DNA of 64,000 nucleotides from Spartobacteria bacterium (GTDB taxonomy: Bacteria; Verrucomicrobiota; Verrucomicrobiia; Chthoniobacterales; UBA10450), in NCBI GenBank assembly GCA_003169695.1, contig PNAS01000076.1, forward strand, positions 1-64,000, written 5' to 3'. Numbering within the stretch: position 1 is the stretch's first letter; every line of letters begins with the position of its first letter. Shown here one piece after another: positions 15,073-60,960 of this stretch. A program made the position numbers and the translations under genes. Under the pieces are notes generated by a model that had not been told where the DNA came from, did not search any database, and saw only the letters and a program-made list of their open reading frames with translations.

Positions 15073-15108
15073 ACCCCATTGAATAGAGGCATCGCACGAC
15101 ATGATCAA

Positions 15109-15246
15109 GGTGGATCGGCCGCTCCGTCGGACGATGACAAACAGGTCTCCGCTCTGTTAATGCCCGTGCGGCTCGCACCGATGCCAAACAAGTCTCGGCT
15201 CCGCCGACATCATTCTTGGCATCGAGCGCGGAGCGCTCGATCCACC
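15109..15246. repeat. inverted-repeat (REP/MITE-like) element, copy A, 138 bp
   Basis: It begins GGTGGATCGGCCGCTCCGTC and ends with the inverted version (GGAGCGCTCGATCCACC). The inner part, 15184-15219, carries AAACAAGTCTCGGCTCC and GCCGACAT, found inverted in copy B at 27212-27247. A further ~47 bp (15137-15183) resembles a diverged duplicate of that inner part. No transposase is encoded. Confidence 0.85.
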
Positions 15247-15350: not shown

Positions 15351-15647
15351 CTAGTTGTGAAACGTCGGGGACCGACGCGCTCCATGCCAGAAATGAAGGA
15401 TCGTTACGGCCGCAGCCTTCTCGTCACACAGATAAAAGATGAGGAATGGTGAAATCGGCATCTTCCGAATCCCACGCACCTTGTCGTGAAACGGGAAACG
15501 CTCTGGCCGCTTATGCAAACTCAGCGCGCAATCGATAAGCTTGTCGCCCAAACGGATTGCCGCGTTGCGATCATCCTGTGCGACGAATTCGACGATCCCC
15601 TGCAGGTCTGCGAGTGCGCTGTCAGCGATCAGGACTTGGAAGTCCAT
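15351..15647 (-). CDS. RelE/ParE superfamily toxin
   Basis: 98 residues. The fold pattern is typical of ParE/RelE: FQVLIADSALADLQGIVEFV, a second helix, RPERFPFHD and the final strands ISPFLIFYLCDE and AVTILHFWHGARR. The ending HFWHGARR is close to the usual HVRHGRR. ParE-type toxins inhibit gyrase, RelE-type cleave mRNA on the ribosome; which applies here is not clear. Its start overlaps the end of the upstream antitoxin by 19 bases, the usual order for this pair (antitoxin first). Confidence 0.88.
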   Translation of the reverse strand: MDFQVLIADSALADLQGIVEFVAQDDRNAAIRLGDKLIDCALSLHKRPERFPFHDKVRGIRKMPISPFLIFYLCDEKAAAVTILHFWHGARRSPTFHN

Positions 15648-15844
15648 TGGGGGATCAATGTCCTCGCCTCCTCAAGAGGACGGACGCGGCCGGCTTCGAC
15701 ATCTTCCAATCCGCGCTTCAAGGCAGCTTCCAACGCGACATCATTCGGCTCGGAATTCAGCGCGAATAATTCCGCGACGAGCAGGGCCTTGTCGCTTTCC
15801 GCCAAGCCCGCAATCGCCATCTTAATTTCTTGAAGGGAGCTCAT
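15629..15844 (-). CDS. antitoxin of the RelE/ParE-type module
   Basis: 71 residues, acidic, mostly helical (LQEIKMAIAGLAESDKALLVAEL, then EAALKRGLEDVEAGRVRPLEEA). The C-terminal half resembles antitoxins that pair with ParE/RelE toxins. Its 3' end overlaps the toxin start, so translation is probably coupled. It likely neutralises the toxin and may repress the pair. Confidence 0.8.
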   Translation of the reverse strand: MSSLQEIKMAIAGLAESDKALLVAELFALNSEPNDVALEAALKRGLEDVEAGRVRPLEEARTLIPQWTSKS

Positions 15845-17064: not shown

Positions 17065-17123
17065 TTGACCCGGTCTCCTCTGACGTGTGAGGTCCGGATT
17101 ACGGCAGGCGGCGCGAGCGCCAG

Positions 17124-17156
17124 GTGATGCTATACGTGAATCACGTATAGCATCAC
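17124..17156. promoter_or_regulatory. 33-bp near-perfect palindrome over the GNAT leader
   Basis: GTGATGCTATACGTGA and its exact inverse TCACGTATAGCATCAC flank a single central A. It ends eight bases before the GNAT start codon, covering the position where a ribosome site would be. It could be an operator for a dimeric regulator or an RNA hairpin blocking translation. Confidence 0.7.
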
Positions 17157-17164
17157 AGACCCCG

Positions 17165-17629
17165 ATGAAGACAAAGATCCAATTGCGGAATGTCGAAGCG
17201 GACGACTTGCCGCTGTTTTTCGAGCACCAGCGCGATCCGATCGCGGTGGCCATGGTCGCATTCAATTCGCGCGACCGGGCTGCGTTCGACCAGCATTGGG
17301 CGAAGCTCCTGGCCGACGACTCGCTTCTGAAAAAGACGGTGATCGTTGACGGTGAGGTAGCCGGAAACATTGGCAGTTGGACGACGGAGGGGAAGCGAGA
17401 GGTCGGCTATTGGATCGACCGCGCCTTTTGGGGCCGCGGCGTGGCCACCGAGGCGCTCTCCGCTTTCCTCTGCCTGGAACAGACCCGGCCGCTTCACGCG
17501 GGGGTGGCGAAGCATAACGTGGCCTCGATCCGCGTCCTGCAAAAATGCGGGTTCAAGTTATCCCACTCCGCGGAGGAAGCATCCAATGACGCGGACGCTT
17601 CGCACGTTCTTTTGACGCTAACAGCTTGA
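17165..17629 (+). CDS. GNAT family N-acetyltransferase
   Basis: 154 residues from the ATG at 17165. It starts with IQLRNVEADDLPLFFEHQRD, then VIVDGEVAGNIGSW and the acetyl-CoA pyrophosphate-binding motif A, GYWIDRAFWGRGVATEAL (RGVATE about 91-96), and ends with motif B, NVASIRVLQKCGF. This is the RimJ/RimL-like acetyltransferase pattern; the acceptor cannot be predicted. The frame is open upstream to 17087, but that would translate the palindrome, so the ATG after it is preferred. No clear Shine-Dalgarno is visible because the palindrome occupies the leader. Confidence 0.88.
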   Translation: MKTKIQLRNVEADDLPLFFEHQRDPIAVAMVAFNSRDRAAFDQHWAKLLADDSLLKKTVIVDGEVAGNIGSWTTEGKREVGYWIDRAFWGRGVATEALSAFLCLEQTRPLHAGVAKHNVASIRVLQKCGFKLSHSAEEASNDADASHVLLTLTA

Positions 17630-17671
17630 TCTTCCAATGCGCTGGAAGCGCCTCTCAACTCAGTGAATACC

Positions 17672-17692
17672 TATCGTAAGCCACTTACGATG
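17672..17692. repeat. CATCGTAA-type palindrome, copy 3
   Basis: TATCGTAA-GCCAC-TTACGATG: one mismatch at the outermost pair relative to the copies at 15902 and 16558. Confidence 0.8.
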
Positions 17693-17941
17693 CCGAGCGC
17701 CAAGATTCGGGGCAGGTGGGCCAATGCGAATTAACGAGATTCACAGACTTCCCCGCCGACTCCGCCACGGCGGGCAATCCGAAATCGCGATTTGGCCGAT
17801 GCCTCTCGAGCGCTCCCGATCGCCCTGAACCTAACTGAGGTAACGACTGGCACGACGCGGTGATTTCGGCGTAACAGCCCGGATCTCGCAGATGAATAAT
17901 ATTTGCGCTGGGCGTTAACTCGTGAACCATAGAGTTCGGAA

Positions 17942-17953
17942 ACACAGCTGTGT
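17942..17953. promoter_or_regulatory. 12-bp palindrome upstream of hamA
   Basis: ACACAGCTGTGT, a perfect dyad 31 bases before the hamA start codon. Position fits an operator near a promoter, but no promoter elements are convincing, so this is tentative. Confidence 0.3.
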
Positions 17954-17984
17954 GTTCGTAAACTGAACATCCCCCGGATACTAC

Positions 17985-18905
17985 ATGACGACGTCATTAG
18001 ACGAAGCTCTCGACCTTTCGAATTACCTTGAGGTATCGACCGAGCACTACGAGGCCTGTCTCGACTGTCTGGACGCGGATGAGAACTGGGACTCCCCGGA
18101 AGCGATCTTGCACTTCCAGCACCTCCGATTCGATGGGAACGGAGAGCCGAAGTTCAAGGATCTCGCTGAAGCGCTCGCAGACCACATTATCGAGTATTGC
18201 TTCGCGGCTCGTCGACGAGGGAAACCAGCGAAACCCCACGAATATTCTCGGCTGAGTCGAGAAGGCAGAGCGTACCTCCGAAAGATCGGCACCAGCGGGG
18301 AAGCCGGAGAGATGCTTCTGTACTTTCTCCTTGAGGCAGTGCTTCGCGCTCCGCAGATGGTGGCAAAAATGGAGTTAAAAACGAACCCGCGGATGGAGAC
18401 CCATGGGTCGGATGGCATCCATATGAGGTGGCATGAAACAGACGGAAAGCTGGATCTGTTCTTCGGCGAAGCAAAGCTGGAACAAACGATCTACTCAGCG
18501 CTAGATAACATGATCGAAAGTCTTCAGAGTTTTCACTCCGAAGGACTTCTTGAACACGAGTTCGGTGTCGTCACGAGCCACTATAAACATGCCGATGAGA
18601 AGATGAGGGAGGAGATCATGAGGCTTCTAGATCGCAAAAAACCCGGCGGAGACTGCCGTATCAATCACGCATGTCTCGTTGGCTATAATTGGGACGAGTA
18701 CAAAAAACTCACCGCTGTTAGCAGCCATGAGTTGGCAGACACGTTCCGACAACGGTACATCTCTGACTTGCCGCGTCTGAAAAAGCTGCTTGCTGGCCGA
18801 TTCGCCTGTTTCGCGAATCGGCGCCTGCGATTCGAAATCTTTGTATTGCCGTTCCGGACGGTTCAAGAGTTTCGCACCGCTTTTAATCACGCTGTCGCGA
18901 GTTAA
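17985..18905 (+). CDS. hamA: Hachiman defence protein HamA (DUF1837 nuclease)
   Basis: 306 residues. The C-terminal half carries the DUF1837 signature: GEAGEMLLYFLLEAVL (107-120), then GSDGIHMRW (141-149) and LDLFFGEAKLEQ (157-167). D143, E162 and K164 fit a PD-(D/E)XK nuclease core. In Hachiman systems HamA is the effector nuclease and HamB a helicase that senses DNA and releases it; HamA pairing with a large helicase encoded immediately downstream is diagnostic. The hamB start is two bases past this stop, so the two are cotranscribed. The N-terminal ~100 residues are family-variable. Confidence 0.92.
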   Translation: MTTSLDEALDLSNYLEVSTEHYEACLDCLDADENWDSPEAILHFQHLRFDGNGEPKFKDLAEALADHIIEYCFAARRRGKPAKPHEYSRLSREGRAYLRKIGTSGEAGEMLLYFLLEAVLRAPQMVAKMELKTNPRMETHGSDGIHMRWHETDGKLDLFFGEAKLEQTIYSALDNMIESLQSFHSEGLLEHEFGVVTSHYKHADEKMREEIMRLLDRKKPGGDCRINHACLVGYNWDEYKKLTAVSSHELADTFRQRYISDLPRLKKLLAGRFACFANRRLRFEIFVLPFRTVQEFRTAFNHAVAS

Positions 18906-18907
18906 TC

Positions 18908-21445
18908 ATGCCCGCGCCTTTTTCTGAGGGACTGACACGTCTCTACAGAAAATTGCTCATCGCGGACATGCAACGCCGGCTACCCGGGCCGGAGTCATCC
19001 GACGCTGAAACGATCGCCGATGAAGACCTCGGTCGGCTTATTAGCAGCGCCTCCATTCTCGCATTGTCGATCAACGCAGAAGATCGAACCGTCGCGTACG
19101 AAATTGCAACACGTACGGCAAACCTACGGAACAACTTGCCGCCTGCGCTGTTAAAGGCGGCCGATTTACTGCTTTCACGACTCGGAAATTTTCCAGGCCG
19201 CCAGTTACTCCGAGAGCGTTACGGCAACGGGTTCTCAGAGACAGCCATCGCTCCATACCTCGACCTTGAAGTCGTCGCCCGAGAGATTGAAAATACGATC
19301 GAAGATCCGGCCAGCGACGCAAAACCTCTTACCGACTTCCAAGTGGGAATGCTCGAAGCGTTCAGCGAATCCCCGGCAGTCAGTGTCTCGGCTCCGACGT
19401 CGGCGGGTAAGTCGTTCATCCTCTCACTTGAAGTTATTCGAAATCTCACACAGCAGTCGCAAGCGTCAGTCGTGTATCTCGTGCCGACGCGCGCGCTAAT
19501 ACGTCAGGTGATTCTCACTCTCCGCCGCGACTTGAAGAAGTCCCAGTTGGGAAATGTACCGTTAAGGTCTGTGCCAACCCCTATTACTCGCGACGCCGCG
19601 CCGTCGGGTGTGGTGTATGTGTTAACGCAAGAACGGCTCCTCAGTTTGCTTCACTCCGATGAGGCTGATGTGTGGATCACGACTCTCATCGTTGACGAGG
19701 CTCAGGGCATTGGCGATGGCGCGAGAGGAGTTCTACTATTCGGCGCGATCGACGCCGTCCTTGAAAGATTCCCTGAAGCGAAAGTGTTCTTCGCAAGTCC
19801 GCTAGCGCGCAATCCTGAGTATCTGCTCAAGTTATTTCATCGCGATGGCTTGCCTTTTCTGGAGCAACATTCGCCGGTTTCCCAGAATCTAGTCCTCGTT
19901 GGTCCGGGCGGTGGCGGTGCAACGTTCGCAACTTTCCAGCTGATTCTTCCAGGCGAACGAGTGGACCTCGGAGAACGAGATCTCGGTTTCTCACTGCGCC
20001 AGGTCGGGGTTCTCTCTAGACGAGCTAAGCTCGCGCTAGCGGTCCAAGGTGCGCGTAGCTGCTGTATCGTTTACGCGAACGGCGCCCGGGATGCGGAAAA
20101 GATTGCTGCGGAGATCGCCTCCGCCATTCCGTCGGCTCCGACTCAAGATCAGGAGGTGACCGAGTTTATCACCTTCTTGGAGGAGCAAGTGCATAAGGAA
20201 TACGGCTTGATCGAGGCTCTTAGGAAAAAGGTCGGGTTCCACTACAGCAACATGCCGGGCAGTGTTCGGGCCGGCGTCGAAGAGTTGTGTGCGCGGAACA
20301 AACTGAAGTTCATCTGCTGCACAAGCACGCTGCTACAGGGCGTGAATCTCCCAGCGAGGGATATCGTAATCGAAAACCCAAAGCGGGGAATGGGAAAGCC
20401 GATGCGGCGCGGTGACTTCGTGAATCTCGCCGGACGTGCAGGGCGTCTGCTACGAGAATTCCACGGAAACGTGTGGTGTTTGCGCCCCGATCTGTGGGAA
20501 GAGCCATCTTATGAGGGTGAGTCCCTTCACGAGATAGAATCCGCGTTCGCAAAAACACTCGAAGACGGTGGTAAAACAATTCGCCAGGTGCTTGACGACG
20601 ATGGCGGGCTCGATGATCGCAATCGGGACACGGCGATTGCAGCGTTAACACGCGTTTACACTGAGTTCACGCTTTCTGGCAAGTCGCTGTCGGATTCGGA
20701 GTATCACACACCGGAGAATGAGGCATCACTCATCGAAACAGCTGAGCGGCTAAGAAATCTTGAGACAAGCCTTCCGCCAGAGTTGTTCGGCCGTAACTAC
20801 GGAGTTCTTCCAATGCGGTTGGAAGCGCTGCGGCAATATTTTTCGCGGGTTGATGATCCGCTCGGGTTAATTCCAATTGCGCCGTTCATCCCGAAAACCA
20901 ATGGCCGATTGTTCGAAATATTCCACACGGTGGAACGAGAACTTCAACATGACTCCACTGAGCGCTACCGATACTACTGGCGGCTCGCAAAACAGTGGAT
21001 ACACCAACGCCCATTGCGCCAGATAATCGACGAAAGGATTCAGTTCCTACGCACTCGGGACCCTGACGTCAACATCAGGAACGTCATCTACGAAATCGTC
21101 GAGGATATCGAGACAGTTTTACGGTACCGATTTGTGAAACACCTTCGCGCCTACAATGACGTCCTCGCGGTCGTTTTGAGAGAGCGCGGCTTTCCGCAGC
21201 AAGCGGAGAGTCTTCCGCCAATGCACTTGTATCTCGAATGCGGCGCGGCTGACATCGTTGCGATTAGTTTGATTTCGCTCGGCCTTTCACGAGTAGCAGC
21301 CTTGTTTCTGAAGGGGCGAATTGACTTACCGCGGGATGCGACACCCGAGGATTGCTTGAAAAAACTTCGGTCGCTCCCACTCGATGCGATGCCGCTTCCA
21401 GTATATTGTCGGCGAGAGCTCAGCGCATTGGGCTTTGGACGCTGA
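18908..21445 (+). CDS. hamB: Hachiman defence helicase HamB
   Basis: 845 residues, superfamily 2 helicase. Walker A SAPTSAGKS (161-169), motif Ia VPTRALIRQ (192-200), Walker B DEAQ (263-266), FHYSNMPGSVRAGVEEL (444-460), motif V TSTLLQGVNLPARD (472-485) and motif VI NLAGRAGR (506-513) are all intact and in order. The long C-terminus (about 530-845) is helical and typical for HamB. It is the sensor/motor partner of HamA in this anti-phage system. All catalytic motifs look complete, so the system is probably functional. It ends 58 bases from the convergent frameshifted nuclease gene. Confidence 0.92.
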   Translation: MPAPFSEGLTRLYRKLLIADMQRRLPGPESSDAETIADEDLGRLISSASILALSINAEDRTVAYEIATRTANLRNNLPPALLKAADLLLSRLGNFPGRQLLRERYGNGFSETAIAPYLDLEVVAREIENTIEDPASDAKPLTDFQVGMLEAFSESPAVSVSAPTSAGKSFILSLEVIRNLTQQSQASVVYLVPTRALIRQVILTLRRDLKKSQLGNVPLRSVPTPITRDAAPSGVVYVLTQERLLSLLHSDEADVWITTLIVDEAQGIGDGARGVLLFGAIDAVLERFPEAKVFFASPLARNPEYLLKLFHRDGLPFLEQHSPVSQNLVLVGPGGGGATFATFQLILPGERVDLGERDLGFSLRQVGVLSRRAKLALAVQGARSCCIVYANGARDAEKIAAEIASAIPSAPTQDQEVTEFITFLEEQVHKEYGLIEALRKKVGFHYSNMPGSVRAGVEELCARNKLKFICCTSTLLQGVNLPARDIVIENPKRGMGKPMRRGDFVNLAGRAGRLLREFHGNVWCLRPDLWEEPSYEGESLHEIESAFAKTLEDGGKTIRQVLDDDGGLDDRNRDTAIAALTRVYTEFTLSGKSLSDSEYHTPENEASLIETAERLRNLETSLPPELFGRNYGVLPMRLEALRQYFSRVDDPLGLIPIAPFIPKTNGRLFEIFHTVERELQHDSTERYRYYWRLAKQWIHQRPLRQIIDERIQFLRTRDPDVNIRNVIYEIVEDIETVLRYRFVKHLRAYNDVLAVVLRERGFPQQAESLPPMHLYLECGAADIVAISLISLGLSRVAALFLKGRIDLPRDATPEDCLKKLRSLPLDAMPLPVYCRRELSALGFGR

Positions 21446-21502
21446 CTTCCCCACTTTCAGCGGGCCAGGCGTATTGGGATTACCCTCCAACCAAATGCTT
21501 TT

Positions 21503-22257
21503 CTAGAGGTCGATTTCCCCCTCCTTCAACCCGGTCTCTATCAAAGGACTAAGAGCAAGGATCTTGGGCGGTACCAGAGTTCTGTCCTTCTCATCGTCGA
21601 TCCAGCAGATTAGAAGATCCACATCCTCTTTCTTATGATTCGTTTTGAAATCGGAGGAGTACATTTTGAACTCGCCATCAAGTATTGATTTGTTGCCCGG
21701 TCAATCACAATGGCATCTGGCTTTGATTCGCTTATATAGCCCAACTGCGCCAGCAATTCCTTACTCGCGCCGCAACAATATCGATAATCGGTCAACTGGT
21801 AATCCGAAAGCGTTCCGAACACCAAATACACGTCAGTTTCCGTGCGCGGCGTCCACGTCTTGATCGAAGCATGTCGGAACGGCTCAATCAGCAAATGCTT
21901 AAGGTTATTCCGTCCGAACACTGTTTCGTCGGCTGGGCTCTGAGGCGCGACGGCAATCGCAAGAGGTCCAGCCGGAACAGGGGGAGTTGCTGGCGGCGTC
22001 AAGATGATTGTCCCATCGGCAAAATCGAGTTCAATCGTGTCGTCGAGCTTTACATCGAAAACTCGATACATACGCGCAAGCCCGCCAATGAAGTTGGCGG
22101 TCGTTAAGGTGCCTGACAGATCGGTTGCATCGAGACCTTGCACTCGAAGAGGATACTCCTGCTTCGCCTTGAGATTATGAGCGGCAATGAAAGCCGCCGG
22201 CAAATAAACGCCCCTAAGGGCAATGTGACTCTGCTTTATCGTAGTCGGTATCGGCAT
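21503..22257 (-). pseudogene. PD-(D/E)XK restriction-like nuclease gene with a frameshift at the active site
   Basis: The first frame (22257 down to about 21674) encodes 195 residues ending ESKPDAIVIDRATNQYLMA; after that it turns into nonsense. One base skipped there, the other frame continues with EFKMYSSDFKTNHKKEDVDL, then LLICWIDDEK and KILALSPLIETGLKEGEIDL before a stop at 21503. Joined, this gives PD-x13-E-x-K, a textbook nuclease core (D181, then Glu and Lys), in a ~251-residue protein. Residues 10-90 look like a small beta-barrel, possibly DNA-binding. Whether the missing base is real decay, phase variation or an assembly error cannot be decided from one sequence. Confidence 0.8.
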
Positions 22258-22386
22258 TTCGCTGTGCGTTTATATTTCCGTCATCCGATGCGGACACACT
22301 TCATTGGGTCAAATTTCCTGGAGTAGATGGAGGTTGGACGGATTGGCTAATTTATTTCTAGTCTGATCAATCCACGTGTTTCGGCA

Positions 22387-23158
22387 TTAGAAATGGGGGC
22401 CTGACCGCGAGTCCTCCATGAACCTATTGAATGCGTTCGGAAAGGTCATTGCCAAAACCCCAGCAACAATGAAGACGCCAGCATTCGTCCATAAGCCATA
22501 CAGCCACGTGAGGTCGGTGAGCTTCACCCCGAAAAGCACGAGAATTATCCAAACAATCCACGATACCCCAGCGATAGTACTTCCAATCCAAAACAGGAAC
22601 TTTCCGAACGCCACTCCGGTCAACTGCAATTCTTTGATGTCTACGACTCCAGCAATCCTTCCATCAACCGTGATCGGGGCATCGAAATCCGCGGCCAAAA
22701 TCTTTAGCGTCATCGAATCTCTCGGATTCAGCAGCACGGGAGAAAGGATGACGGATTCTCCTTCCTTGTTGGACGGTGACATTAAGACTACTTGGAAAAA
22801 CCTCGGTGATGCCAGCAGTTAGAATTCGCACGCCCTTATTCAAGACTACTCTCACAGGCCGTTCATAGTCAGTGAAAATTATTGGCAGGTTGCCGGAATT
22901 CGTAAACTTCACCAATAGAAGCTGCGCGTCGTTAGCTGGCTCCAAGTCAAAAAGGATTTGAACTCTGCCCCCAATGTCATCCTTAATCGCTGCTAACGGT
23001 GTTACGGATAATATTTCATACGTGAGAAGCTTGCGACGCCTAGCTAAGTAGAGGGTAACGACCCCCAGGACTAAAGTAATTACCCCAAATCCGACAGCCG
23101 CTAACACACCGAGCGATTGCCAGATTGGGTCGCGCCAAAGATCCGCTGCGGTGGTCAT
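22387..23158 (-). pseudogene. membrane protein gene with an internal frameshift
   Basis: From the ATG at 23158 the product has one TM helix (GVLAAVGFGVITLVLGVVTLYLA), then TYEILSVTPLAAIKDDIGGR, FDLEPANDAQLLLVKFTNSG and DYERPVRVVLNKG. Near 22755-22775 the frame must shift to continue with SNKEGESVILSPVLLNPRDS, LKILAADFDAPITVDGRIAG and two more TM helices to the stop at 22387. I recognise a common family of bacterial membrane proteins of unknown function with this layout (TYEILS...YERPI...LNPGD). The two halves overlap in different frames for about 120 bases. It lies 129 bases upstream of the frameshifted nuclease on the same strand. Confidence 0.7.
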
Positions 23159-23656
23159 TTCAATCGTTCCAACTGACTTTGCCAAGCTACCTTCGCAAGG
23201 CTTCGGCGAGCCAGGGAACGCGAGTGCTGTCGCCAGAAAGTTGATGGTTGAGAGTTGATTGTTGGGGGTTGGCGGTTTTCAAAGAGGGGTTTCTATATCT
23301 GCTTCGCCATCGCCGCAGGCCGGACTCTGCCGATGATGTCATCTCCACGAATCGTGTAAACAATTTTCCATCATCGGAAGAGGAGAGGGAGAATTGGGGG
23401 TCAGGCAACAAATCTTGACAAGTCTCCGCTGACGAACTGACGCGACGGTTTTTCGCTCCTGGCATCATGGGCGGTTTGACATCGACCGGGGCGGCGAGCG
23501 AGAGCGTAAAGCTCCGTTGGAGCCACGCCCTCTAGAGCGTAAAGCTTCGATTGAGCCACGCCCCTCTGCGGAATTGAGGATCGAGTGAGCTCACCAGTAG
23601 ACACGTTCCGTCGGAGGTCTTGACATTGTTTAGGGTCGCAGCCCAAATGGCGGGCG
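23159..23656. other. gene-free stretch with tandem repeat
   Basis: 498 bases without a credible gene; includes a G/T-rich low-complexity patch (about 23235-23280) and the 33-bp tandem duplication at 23502-23567. Confidence 0.6.
23502..23567. repeat. two tandem 33-bp units
   Basis: Both units start GAGCGTAAAGCT and contain GAGCCACGCC; they differ at a handful of positions. Such GCGTAAAGCTYC sequence looks like a dispersed intergenic repeat, although no other copy is evident in this window. Confidence 0.75.
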
Positions 23657-25162
23657 ATGAATTCGCCCAAACACGGTTTCTCCGCGGCTCCGGAGGGAAC
23701 GGCCGTGCTGTTCTTCATTCAAATCTTCGCGACGCTCGGCTTCGCCGTCCTCTACTCGACGCTGGTCCTCTACGCGACGAAGCACCTTCAGCTCTCGGTG
23801 AAAGTGGCCACGACGTTGATGGGCGTGTTTGGCGCCTTCAATTACGGCCTCCATCTCTTCGGCGGCTACCTCGGCGGCCGCTTTCTCTCGAACCGGAATC
23901 TCTTCGTCGGCGGCATGGCCGTGCAGGTCATCGGTTGCGGATGCATTGCGGGTGGCACGGCCGCGCTGTTCTACATCGGCCTCGCTTTCTTCCTCACCGG
24001 CAGCGGACTCAACGTCACCTGCATCAACATGATGCTGACGCAGCGTTTCACTCCGGAGGATCCGCGTCGCGAAGGAGCCTTCCTCTGGAACTACGCCGGC
24101 ATGAACGTCGGATTCTTCGTCGGGTTCGCCGTCGCCGGCTACTTCCAGGGGACCCAGAGCTATTCGAGCCTTTTTATCTTCGCGACGCTCGGCAACTTTG
24201 TCGCCATCGTCCTCGCCCTGCTGTCGTGGAGGACGCTGGTCGACCGCAACACACCGCTGCTCGAGGCGAAGTCGAAGCAGTTCCGGCTGCGCCTGCTCGG
24301 CGGCATCGGCATTCTCATCGGCCTCATTCCGGTTGTGTGGTTGATGCTACAGCGGCCCGGCATGACCGAAACGCTGATCAAGGGCATCTGCGCCGCGGTC
24401 GCGTTGACGCTGATCTACCTCACGCTGCGCCACCCGGATCGCCGCGAGAGGCGGAACATGACGGCGTACCTGATTTTGACGGTCGGCTCGCTGGCCTTCT
24501 GGTCGCTGTATCAGATGGCACCGAGCGGCCTGCAACTGTTCGCGGTCAACAACGTCAACCTGATGATCGGTAAGGTGGAGATTCAGCCGCAGTGGATTCA
24601 GAACATCAACACCGTCTGCATCGTGCTCGGCGGGCCGCTGCTTGCGTCGGCGTTTACCCGCATGCGCGCGGGCGGATGGAGGATCGACATCCCGAAGCAG
24701 TTTGCGACATCGCTTATCTTGATGGCGCTGGGCTTTCTCATTCTCCCGCTGGGCATCAAGCTGGCCGGCGTGGACGGCAAGAGTGCGTTCGTGTGGCTGT
24801 TCATGAGTTATGTGCTGCAGAGCGTCGGTGAGTTGCTCATCTCTCCCATCGGCTACGCGATGATCGGCAAGCTCGCGCCGAAGCAATATCAGGGGGTGAT
24901 GATGGGTAGCTGGATGCTCGTAACGGGCCTCGCGTCACTCTTCGCGGGCGACTTCTCGGGCATGATCCCCGAGCCGAACGGCACCACCGCGGTCGCGACC
25001 AACCCCGAGTATGTGAAGCTCTTCGGCGCGCTCGGCGCGGGCAGCCTCGTGGTCGGCGTCGCGCTGGTCGTGCTCATTCCGTTCCTGCGCAGGTTGATCA
25101 GCGACAAGGCCGAGGTACCGCCTGAGGAAATGGAGATGGCGACGGTGGTTCCTGTCGCGTGA
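23657..25162 (+). CDS. POT-family proton-dependent oligopeptide transporter
   Basis: 501 residues with about 13-14 TM helices. The N-terminal signature LYATKHLQLSVKVATTLMG and GGYLGGRFLSNRN, the GSGLNVTCINMMLTQ region, the mid-protein FWSLYQMAPSGLQLFAVNNV and the C-terminal QSVGELLISPIGYAMIGKLA are characteristic of DtpA/DtpB-type peptide:H+ symporters in the inner membrane. The coding sequence is more GC-rich and less AT-variable than its neighbours, hinting at a different history. The start (ATG at 23657) lacks a good ribosome site. Confidence 0.9.
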   Translation: MNSPKHGFSAAPEGTAVLFFIQIFATLGFAVLYSTLVLYATKHLQLSVKVATTLMGVFGAFNYGLHLFGGYLGGRFLSNRNLFVGGMAVQVIGCGCIAGGTAALFYIGLAFFLTGSGLNVTCINMMLTQRFTPEDPRREGAFLWNYAGMNVGFFVGFAVAGYFQGTQSYSSLFIFATLGNFVAIVLALLSWRTLVDRNTPLLEAKSKQFRLRLLGGIGILIGLIPVVWLMLQRPGMTETLIKGICAAVALTLIYLTLRHPDRRERRNMTAYLILTVGSLAFWSLYQMAPSGLQLFAVNNVNLMIGKVEIQPQWIQNINTVCIVLGGPLLASAFTRMRAGGWRIDIPKQFATSLILMALGFLILPLGIKLAGVDGKSAFVWLFMSYVLQSVGELLISPIGYAMIGKLAPKQYQGVMMGSWMLVTGLASLFAGDFSGMIPEPNGTTAVATNPEYVKLFGALGAGSLVVGVALVVLIPFLRRLISDKAEVPPEEMEMATVVPVA

Positions 25163-27167: not shown

Positions 27168-27183
27168 AGGAAATTATGTCCGA

Positions 27184-27275
27184 GGTGGATCGAGCGCTCC
27201 GTCGCTCGATGTTAAAAGTAATGTCGGCGGAGCCGAGACTTGCTTGCCATCGCCCGACGGAGCGGCCGATCCACC
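27184..27275. repeat. inverted-repeat (REP/MITE-like) element, copy B, 92 bp
   Basis: Begins GGTGGATCGAGCGCTCCGTC, ends with CGGAGCGGCCGATCCACC. The right end inverted differs from the left end of copy A at one position, and the inner part matches copy A inverted. It occupies almost the entire space between korA and korB. Confidence 0.88.
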
Positions 27276-27289
27276 TTGAATGCGTTTCA

Positions 27290-30955: not shown

Positions 30956-31026
30956 TCATAACGACGGTGATCCTCCTTCGCCGAGCTACGGCGGAGACAC
31001 TAGACCGCCGCTACAGAAGGAAGGAT

Positions 31027-57915: not shown

Positions 57916-58301
57916 CTACACTCGTACGTTTTCGAGATGCAAATGCGCCTCACGAAGTTCCAGACTGCGTGCGCGCAGGGCGTCTTCCAACGTCGCGCGT
58001 TGCGGATCAAGCTGGATGTGGAGACGCCGCATCTCTAGGAGATGGGCGATGCCGGAGAAGAACTTCCAGGTGGTCGAGGGACTTGAGCAAAGAATCGGTC
58101 GCACCTCCGCCAAGCGCCGCGCGCTTGGTTTCCTCGTTCGCATCGGCGGTCAGCACAATGACCGGTAGAAAGACTTCATCGCCGGCGGAGCGAAGGGAGT
58201 GGAGGATCGCAAACCCATCCACGGGCGGCATCGTCAAATCGAGCGGAATCAAGTCCGGAGCGCGACATTGATAGGCTCGTCATCGATGATGAGAATTTTC
58301 A
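57916..58301 (-). pseudogene. broken response regulator
   Basis: From the ATG at 58301 the frame reads MKILIIDDEPINVA and then stops. A second frame takes up APDLIPLDLTMPPVDGFAIL and PVIVLTADANEETKRAALGG, missing about 35 codons (the alpha1-beta3 part of the receiver). A third frame takes up HLLEMRRLHIQLD and a coiled-coil tail to 57916. The receiver, with DDE and a phospho-acceptor-like D, is thus scattered over three frames. It sits immediately downstream of the hybrid kinase gene, probably its former partner. Confidence 0.8.
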
Positions 58302-58386
58302 TCTTGCCGAACGTCCTTGTCTCGCCGTGCCAGCCGTTCTGCATTCTGGCATTCTGGTGTTCGAGGAGCTTGCCATTGTTTCGCTC

Positions 58387-60960
58387 CTAGGCTGCGACCG
58401 AATCTTCCGCCCGCCGCGGAGCACATATTTCGTCTATGACGCGGAAGAACTCCCGCATATCGAGCGGCTTGGTGAGGTAAGCACGAGCGCCTGCCGCCAT
58501 AAGCCGCTTTCTCTGACGCGACGTAGCGTCAGCGCTGATGATTACGACCGGGATCTCGCGCGTGGCGTCGTGACGCTGCAAGCGCGAGAGGACTTCCCAG
58601 CCGGGTAAATCGGGCAGGTGCAGATCGAGCAGGATGAGATCGGGTGAATGTCGGCGTGCCAGCTCGATTCCCAACTGGCCTTGCATCGCGGTGATGAGCT
58701 GGATGTGAGGCTGCTCGGCCAGCATTTGCTCGATGAGCGTGAGGTTGGAGAGGTTATCCTCTAGGTAGAGGATGGTGAGCTTTTCCGCGCCTGATCCGTT
58801 GGGAGACGGAGATGCGTTGCGTTTCGCCGAGGCCACTCGCTCGAGCGGAGAATCGGCGCAAGCCAGCTCCACCCAGAAGGTGCTACCCTGCCCGAGAGTG
58901 CTGTTGACTCCGATAGACCCTTGCATTGCCTGCATGAGACGCTGACAAAGCGCCAGCCCAAGGCCTGTCCCTTCCACTGGGGTCTGCTCCGCGCCCAGGC
59001 GATCGAAAGGGGTAAACAACCGGACCAGTTTTTCTGACGAAATGCCAGCTCCGGTATCGCTGACGACGATGCGCATGGCACCGCTTCCGGTCGCGCTGGA
59101 AGAAACCCTAACTTTGCCGTCAAGCGGCGAATACTTAATGGCGTTTGTCAGCAAGTTTAGCAGCACCTGTTTAAACCGCTGCCGATCGGCCATGACATAA
59201 CAGCTTTGATCCAGAGGAGCCGGCGTTAGCAGCTCGGTGCCACGCTCTGCGGCGAGCGGGCGCATGAGGCTCAGCGCTTCTTCCAAAGCCTCCGCTACGC
59301 GGACCGGCTCTAGGGACAATCGTAAATTACCGGTTTCGACGCGGCTGATATCGAGCACCTCGTTAATGAGATTAAGCAGGTGACGACCGGCACTGATGAT
59401 ATGACCGACACGAGTGCGCTGGGTCTCCGTCGGATTCTGTCTCTCGAGGAGTTGACCAAATCCAAGAATCGCGTTCAGCGGCGTCCGCAACTCATGGCTT
59501 ATGCGGGAAAGAAATTCGCTCTTGGCATGATTGGCGCGGTCCGCCTCATCCTTCGCCTCGCGGAGAGCCTTCTCGATCCGGGCGCGGTCGGTTACATCGT
59601 GCGCCACACAGAACATGATCTTGTCCGTCTCCGACCACGACGCTGACCAAAGCACGTCGATCAACGTTCCATCCTTCCGCGTGTAACGATTAACGAAGTC
59701 CGTGATCTTTCCGTCCAGTCGCAGGACTTCCAAGACCTGATTAGTCATCGCTTTGTCTTCGGGCCAAACGAGGTCGATGTGGAAACGCCCAAGTAGTTCG
59801 GCCGAGGTATAGCCCCACAATTGCTCGCAAGCTGCGCTGACGCTAACAAAGCGGCCCCATTCATCCATCGTGCAAATCACGTCCTGAGAGTTATCCATGA
59901 TAAGTTGGTTGGCGTGGTGAGCGGCTTCCAGCTCGCGTTTGCTTTCGCACAACGCCTTCTCAGCCAGCTTCCGCTCGGAAATGTCTTCCACCATGATCAG
60001 GAAGTTGCGCGGGTGGCCGTCTACGTCTCGCATGAGGCAAGCTGTGCGGGTCATCCAGAGAACTTCGCCATTCTTTCGGATATACCGTCGCTCCACCGAA
60101 GAGCGCGGGCCTCCGGTCAGCAACTCTTCCGCATTTTGCTTCCCCTGCGGGATATCGTCCTCGCACGTGATGTCCATAGTGGTGCGTTGCGTAAGGTCGC
60201 TCTCCGAATATCCCACCATCTGGCAGAGCGTCGTGTTTACCCGGTTGAAGCTTTCGTCGAGGCCTACCACAGCCATTCCAATGGGCGCTTCCTCGAAGAT
60301 CTGGCGGAAGCCCTGCTCACTCGCCTCGAGGGCGGCAGTCCGGTTCGCGATCGAACGCATCTCACGAATGCTGCGGAGGCATGAAATGACGAGAAAAACA
60401 TCTTCGAAAATGACCCAGCCGGCGTGCTCGATGGATCGAAGCGGGCTGGCTGCGAGCACGCCGTAGACGGAATAGGGCAAGTAAATTCCGCGCACGAAAT
60501 GGTCGAGCGCCACGACGATGGTCGCGGGAATGAGCACTCGCCAATCGCGGTAGAAGGAGAGAATGACGAGCGAGCCGAAGACATGGAAATGCGTTTCGAT
60601 TCGTCCGCCCGTCAGCGCGATCAACAAAGCCGACATGAGCATTTGGGCGACGGAAATAACGTAGCGGGTCACCGCGGCGCCGGGCCAAATGCGCGTCAGC
60701 CAAATGGGAAAGATACTTATGGCGCCGCCCAAAAAGATGGCTGCCCAGACATGAATGTGGATCTGGCTCGATTGGCCCGCCCACGTCAAAGGCGCGACAA
60801 AAAACGCTATGAGAATTCCAGCAAGCCATTGGAAGAACATCACCTTCGCGAACAAACGATCCGTGCTTCGCAAGATTTCCTGCCGATGTTGCTCGAAGAG
60901 CTCATCGGCGCGCTCAACAGAATAGTTGCCGCCGCTGGCGCCGAGACTCATTTCAAACAT
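58387..60960 (-). CDS. hybrid sensor histidine kinase with PAS domains
   Basis: 857 residues. About six TM helices (WLAGILIAFFVAPLTWAG to VLIPATIVVALDHFVRGIYL) with the conserved GGRIETHFHVFGSLVILSFY segment, then two PAS domains (230-345, 350-465), HisKA with H in FLSRISHELRTPLNAILGFG, HATPase N/G boxes (VLLNLLTNAIKYSP, VSDTGAGIS, GTGLGLAL), and a C-terminal receiver with D in LILLDLHLPDL and the K in LTKPLDM. It senses an unknown signal at the membrane. Its start overlaps the stop of the upstream RedB-like gene by 13 bases. Confidence 0.93.
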   Translation of the reverse strand: MFEMSLGASGGNYSVERADELFEQHRQEILRSTDRLFAKVMFFQWLAGILIAFFVAPLTWAGQSSQIHIHVWAAIFLGGAISIFPIWLTRIWPGAAVTRYVISVAQMLMSALLIALTGGRIETHFHVFGSLVILSFYRDWRVLIPATIVVALDHFVRGIYLPYSVYGVLAASPLRSIEHAGWVIFEDVFLVISCLRSIREMRSIANRTAALEASEQGFRQIFEEAPIGMAVVGLDESFNRVNTTLCQMVGYSESDLTQRTTMDITCEDDIPQGKQNAEELLTGGPRSSVERRYIRKNGEVLWMTRTACLMRDVDGHPRNFLIMVEDISERKLAEKALCESKRELEAAHHANQLIMDNSQDVICTMDEWGRFVSVSAACEQLWGYTSAELLGRFHIDLVWPEDKAMTNQVLEVLRLDGKITDFVNRYTRKDGTLIDVLWSASWSETDKIMFCVAHDVTDRARIEKALREAKDEADRANHAKSEFLSRISHELRTPLNAILGFGQLLERQNPTETQRTRVGHIISAGRHLLNLINEVLDISRVETGNLRLSLEPVRVAEALEEALSLMRPLAAERGTELLTPAPLDQSCYVMADRQRFKQVLLNLLTNAIKYSPLDGKVRVSSSATGSGAMRIVVSDTGAGISSEKLVRLFTPFDRLGAEQTPVEGTGLGLALCQRLMQAMQGSIGVNSTLGQGSTFWVELACADSPLERVASAKRNASPSPNGSGAEKLTILYLEDNLSNLTLIEQMLAEQPHIQLITAMQGQLGIELARRHSPDLILLDLHLPDLPGWEVLSRLQRHDATREIPVVIISADATSRQRKRLMAAGARAYLTKPLDMREFFRVIDEICAPRRAEDSVAA

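Follow-up and report, generated by a model that had tools for sequence, protein, structure and literature searches.

The window, by which we mean the whole stretch of 64,000 nucleotides that was analysed, comes from an uncultured member of the Verrucomicrobiota and carries on its minus strand a nuclease gene that is convergent with the two genes of a Hachiman system (Table 1). Both hamA and hamB were found and appear complete, and the D...GEAK motif found in the hamA product is the one required by active HamA (PMC12799240); the Hachiman neighbour named in the initial annotation is thus indeed in place. These genes lie in an interval, about 5.7 kb long here, that is bounded by a GNAT acetyltransferase gene and by a POT/MFS transporter gene and is occupied by unrelated DNA in sister species. 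In G007, the cargo there is a reverse transcriptase gene (retron-like) together with nucleoside-deoxyribosyltransferase-like and HNH genes; G002 has a SIR2-like gene, and G004 carries genes for CARF, ORC-CDC6-like, PRTase-CE and C5-methyltransferase proteins. Elsewhere in the window, a ParE-family toxin gene (Pfam match) was found at 15351-15844 (-), with a small gene of the usual antitoxin size upstream of it. Short dispersed elements of about 93 and 55 bases, which look REP-type, occur at 27183-27277 and 30962-31019 and also at 15105-15246, with dozens of copies, often on both strands, in this and the sister genomes.

Table 1 Coordinates of the features at the nuclease locus, as positions in the window.
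Feature	Position	Strand	Description
Defence hotspot, GNAT acetyltransferase gene to POT/MFS transporter gene	17087..23657		Other defence genes here in sister species
hamA (Hachiman nuclease)	17985..18905	+	D...GEAK motif present
hamB (Hachiman DEAD-box helicase)	18908..21445	+	Intact, convergent with the nuclease gene
ORF actually present	21610..22257	-	215 aa, last 20 residues non-homologous
In-frame nuclease part	21673..22257	-	Start codon, predicted B3-like domain (residues ~1-90), linker, first PD-(D/E)XK half to PDAIVIDRATNQYLMA
One-base frame break	21670..21679	-	Directly before the catalytic Glu codon
Out-of-frame remainder (EFKMYSS...GEIDL)	21503..21673	-	56 codons and stop; catalytic E-x-K, next helix, last core strand

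We examined the reading frames of the nuclease gene around the break. Frame A opens with the ATG at 22257 on the minus strand and runs for 195 codons up to PDAIVIDRATNQYLMA, after which it adds 20 non-homologous codons and stops, giving an ORF (22257..21610) of 215 residues. Frame B, one base out of step, reads EFKMYSSDFKTNHKKEDVDLLICWIDDEKDRTLVPPKILALSPLIETGLKEGEIDL from the codon overlapping the last base at 21673; the continuation after the shift at about 21673 opens with EFKMYSSDFKTNHKKEDVDLLICWIDD and proceeds to the stop codon at 21503-21505 (-), in agreement with the earlier claim that the downstream frame is intact to a natural end. In the wrong frame, the position of the Lys codon at the break still encodes a Lys (ASSK) by coincidence, and the Glu is lost. 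A codon-usage model that had learned from 275 kb of long frames of the same genome also called, without prior knowledge of the finding, a frame switch at 21674. The 26 candidate switches that this model called without homology were set aside, because overlapping genes yield an identical signal.

Homologues of the nuclease were searched for in 388 genomes of the phylum and in a collection of 84,980 species, and four other copies were found (L004/L010, L011, L012 and L005/L013). Three of them are full-length, two from Verrucomicrobiota and one from Candidatus Cloacimonadota: the L004/L010 protein (genome G267) has 248 residues, the L011 protein 243 and the Cloacimonadota protein (L012) 248 counting from the first Met, all three being intact. 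The fourth, from an Opitutus-like genome (L005/L013/L036), retains only the nuclease half, with an in-frame stop just upstream, and is possibly a remnant itself. Frame A aligned with residues 17-196 of the L004 homologue (39% identity, E 6e-40) and frame B with residues 194-234 (56%, E 2e-16), the two meeting exactly at the E-x-K motif, as they also do on the Cloacimonadota homologue. Since they match contiguous stretches of an intact protein, the two frames are two halves of one gene. All four copies cross the break site in a single frame (VMGEWKKKSS, VMGEWKKKSS, LIAEFKIRSR and VIAEFKMHSS), and because the three full-length homologues are read through in this way, the shift is, as far as the sequences compared go, private to this genome. 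In these homologues, a single residue separates the Glu from the hydrophobic strand before it (VMGEWK, LIAEFK, VIAEFK), and only the loss of one base, not the gain of two, preserves the length around the site. The initial annotation, which had described one missing base and proposed a comparison with intact homologues, was right about the former, and the comparison showed no homologue sharing the shift.

No close relative was found among the plasmids, phages, viral contigs and same-order genomes searched. No model of Pfam, NCBIfam or PADLOC covers the protein of the window, nor does any of Pfam or NCBIfam cover its homologues, and a sequence search against solved structures returned weak or implausible matches only (a designed protein, MazE). 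Distant nuclease-like proteins fused to a DUF5655-like domain are encoded at L066:1321-2136(+) and L068:1024-1866(-); they share a PD...E-F-x...H...CDxIxCW pattern in which Glu replaces the Lys of E-x-K.

The fold was then approached through structure prediction. AlphaFold applied to the intact L011 protein gave an N-terminal block with pLDDT of 67-88 over residues 1-100, the remainder being poor (full-length pLDDT 59.9). The structural matches of residues 1-100 were almost all to B3-type domains, and the top 19 were all B3 or B3-like (Z 8.5 to 6.8). They included the plant B3 domains of FUS3 (Z 8.5), VAL1 (8.3) and NGA1 (all three within 8.5-8.1) and the bacterial domain LlaJI.R1-N (6c5d, 8.0); EcoRII-N (5.7), NgoAVII (5.4) and BfiI (5.3) followed with lower scores. 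The C-terminal half was modelled alone from an eight-row alignment, and the best model reached a mean pLDDT of 79.6 and a pTM of 0.74, the other four being poor. Its matches were in their great majority PD-(D/E)XK enzymes, with EndoMS at the top (5gke, Z 6.2) together with VRR-NUC (4qbn, Z 5.1), AgeI, MspJI, BstEII, BsaWI and FokI, the Z scores of this half all staying below 8 and those of the barrel going no higher than the 8s. Its predicted order of elements, helix-strand-helix-strand-strand(E-x-K)-helix-strand, corresponds to the restriction-endonuclease-like topology, with modest scores. Foldseek returned no match at E < 0.001 for either half, so that the fold call rests on the consistent top rows. 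All four nuclease domains that are unbroken have the motifs P-D-A-I and E-[FW]-K, and the Glu is gone from the translated frame of the window gene. Many matches of a single superfamily agree with one another and with where P-D and E-x-K lie, so that the C-terminal domain can, from motif and predicted fold, be solidly assigned to the PD-(D/E)XK nucleases. The N-terminal domain is predicted to be a B3-like DNA-binding barrel, which gives a fold to the barrel that the initial annotation had suspected there, and it is complete in the window gene despite the break. From its sequence and predicted fold, the gene belongs, in broken form, to a rare and unnamed family of B3-PD-(D/E)XK nucleases, of a known kind.

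The nature of the break was examined from several sides. It is probable, in our view, that it is a real and recent mutation. The competing reading, a sequencing or assembly error that would leave the nuclease of the living bacterium intact, is a serious possibility that we nevertheless hold to be somewhat doubtful. It is favoured by the downstream frame, which is clean and conserved without a second lesion, and by the genome itself, which resembles an assembly binned from a metagenome (85 contigs, 94% complete); a local error in the consensus would give the identical sequence. A neighbouring gene also seems broken at a T5 homopolymer about 1.1 kb off, a typical site of indel errors that could signal a locally poor consensus, whereas the break in the nuclease lies outside any homopolymer and the adjoining hamA and hamB are intact over 3.5 kb. 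We also compared sister-species proteins with 380 kb of the same assembly, and over the ~57 kb of conserved coding sequence covered, no other isolated single-base break was found, which argues that the assembly is not generally indel-ridden. Split frames at L015:4811 were dropped, as they look antisense to a gene.

The neighbouring gene, at 22387-23185 (-) upstream of the nuclease, shows its apparent frame change at the T5 run near 22796-22800 (ITEVF / FQVVLMSPSNKEG). Its product is predicted to be a membrane protein with three hydrophobic stretches, one N-terminal and two C-terminal, and no homologue was found in 289 genomes. A response-regulator receiver pseudogene lies at about 57950-58400 (-) in the window; set against an intact copy in G002 (L051), it is shorter by about 90 bases after KILIIDDEPINVAL and shifts frame again before LLEMRRLHIQL. 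With such a deletion and such frame changes, this pseudogene indicates that genuine gene decay occurs in the genome.

The initial annotation had also raised a phase switch, in which slippage would turn the frame on and off, and had proposed looking for a homopolymer or repeat context. The position of the break exactly at the active site could suit such a switch, and as solitary nucleases are costly, switching would be sensible, an argument from reasoning only. The site itself speaks against it: it has no tandem or simple repeat, no run of more than 2 bases and no slippery heptamer, no run of 6 or more bases occurs in the gene, and the homologues are without a repeat-based switch at the same point. 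In addition, the RNA downstream of the break is no more stable than its shuffles (z -0.7). With no repeat, homopolymer, slippery site or special RNA fold, both phase switching and programmed frameshifting are unlikely. We consider the former very improbable, and the latter, by which the ribosome would join frames A and B, still more so; both frames do look coding, but slippery heptamer and stable downstream structure are missing and all homologues encode the protein in a single frame. Most likely, we are dealing with an ordinary defence gene that was disabled recently, or with an error in the consensus, and not with a switch.

The initial annotation had further suggested that the nuclease is an accessory restriction enzyme of Hachiman, a suggestion that found no support. 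The nuclease gene converges on hamB, so that the two do not form an operon, and no hamAB genes were found beside the nuclease homologues within the stretches read at the homologous loci. By eye, the L011 homologue stands alone among genes resembling a membrane hydrogenase or complex-I type operon and the L012 homologue among thiamine-synthesis-like genes; at the homologous locus L007, a HARE-domain protein is encoded beside it and a DUF1156-type methylase two genes away. The link between nuclease and Hachiman is one of location only, and the shared hotspot explains their proximity. That the truncated protein is kept as a DNA-binding repressor or decoy working with Hachiman is hardly credible, since its whole B3-like domain and the adjoining hamAB genes are set against a convergent orientation, a random tail of 20 residues, half a nuclease core and homologues with no Hachiman beside them in the stretches read.

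We thus return to a recently broken solitary B3-PD-(D/E)XK nuclease, lost by a one-base deletion, as the reading towards which we lean. The ancestor would have been a solitary nuclease, restriction-like and about 250 residues long, its N-terminal B3-like domain binding DNA and its C-terminal PD-(D/E)XK domain cutting it. Deletion of one base before the E-x-K codons would put the ribosome out of frame and yield the 215-residue product, made of the DNA-binding barrel and a nuclease core deprived of the catalytic Glu, the next helix and the last core strand. From the mechanism of the superfamily, such a product should be catalytically dead and unable to cut. As no other lesion is seen in 750 bases, the loss would be recent. 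It may represent a fresh mutation that inactivated a defence gene, non-essential and potentially toxic to its own host, within a turnover hotspot. The analysis shows the frame break, the homology to either side of it, the intact homologues, the predicted folds and the hotspot; we infer that the intact form cleaves DNA, that its role is in defence and that the deletion is real. The loss of a nuclease at its catalytic motif within such a hotspot would make a small case of defence-gene turnover.

We also considered the methyltransferases. A cognate methyltransferase beside the nuclease, as in type II restriction-modification, was not found: none is adjacent at the window, L011 or L012. This genome has no C5 cytosine methyltransferase (PF00145), and its one N6/N4 methyltransferase is on another contig. 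PF00145 is likewise absent from the genome with the truncated copy, and the three genomes in which the nuclease is intact have two to four each. As a hypothesis at most, methylation might protect the hosts of the intact nuclease, a correlation that rests on five genomes, with PF00145 also positive in 10 of 14 control genomes. By extension, compact (~250 aa) methyltransferase-less B3-PD-(D/E)XK nucleases could be stand-alone phage defences that are self-toxic without the right DNA methylation and hence lost there. This speculation, which we think improbable, stems from the intact copies occurring in three genomes with C5 methyltransferases and the frame-broken and truncated ones in the two without any. 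The wider family packs a B3-like domain for reading and a PD-(D/E)XK domain for cutting into a very short chain, a combination that renders its intact members readily testable as minimal single-protein restriction factors.

Compared with known systems, the nuclease is no component of the adjacent Hachiman (HamAB) locus with its canonical HamA (D...GEAK) and DEAD-box HamB, as it lies on the opposite strand, is convergent and is absent beside Hachiman elsewhere. EndoMS/NucS and VRR-NUC, the best structural matches of the C-terminal domain, have no detectable sequence relationship with it and differ in N-terminal domain and role. R.NgoAVII and BfiI, both restriction enzymes from bacteria, use a B3-like domain for recognition (Z about 5 to the barrel), but this domain is C-terminal in them and N-terminal in the present family, and their nuclease is of the phospholipase-D kind. 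R.NgoAVII moreover depends on a helicase as its partner and is accompanied by a methyltransferase (PMC4267653). The Type IIE restriction endonuclease EcoRII has, like the present family, an N-terminal B3-like domain (EcoRII-N, Z 5.7) and a C-terminal PD-(D/E)XK domain. It is an enzyme of about 400 residues paired with a cognate cytosine methyltransferase, whereas the present family, with which it has no sequence match, counts about 250 residues with no methyltransferase directly adjoining. The best bacterial structural match of the barrel is the N-terminal domain of LlaJI.R1 (McrB-like, B3 fold). In LlaJI.R1, the barrel is carried on an AAA+ GTPase and the nuclease is a separate subunit, whereas the present family unites barrel and nuclease in one short chain.
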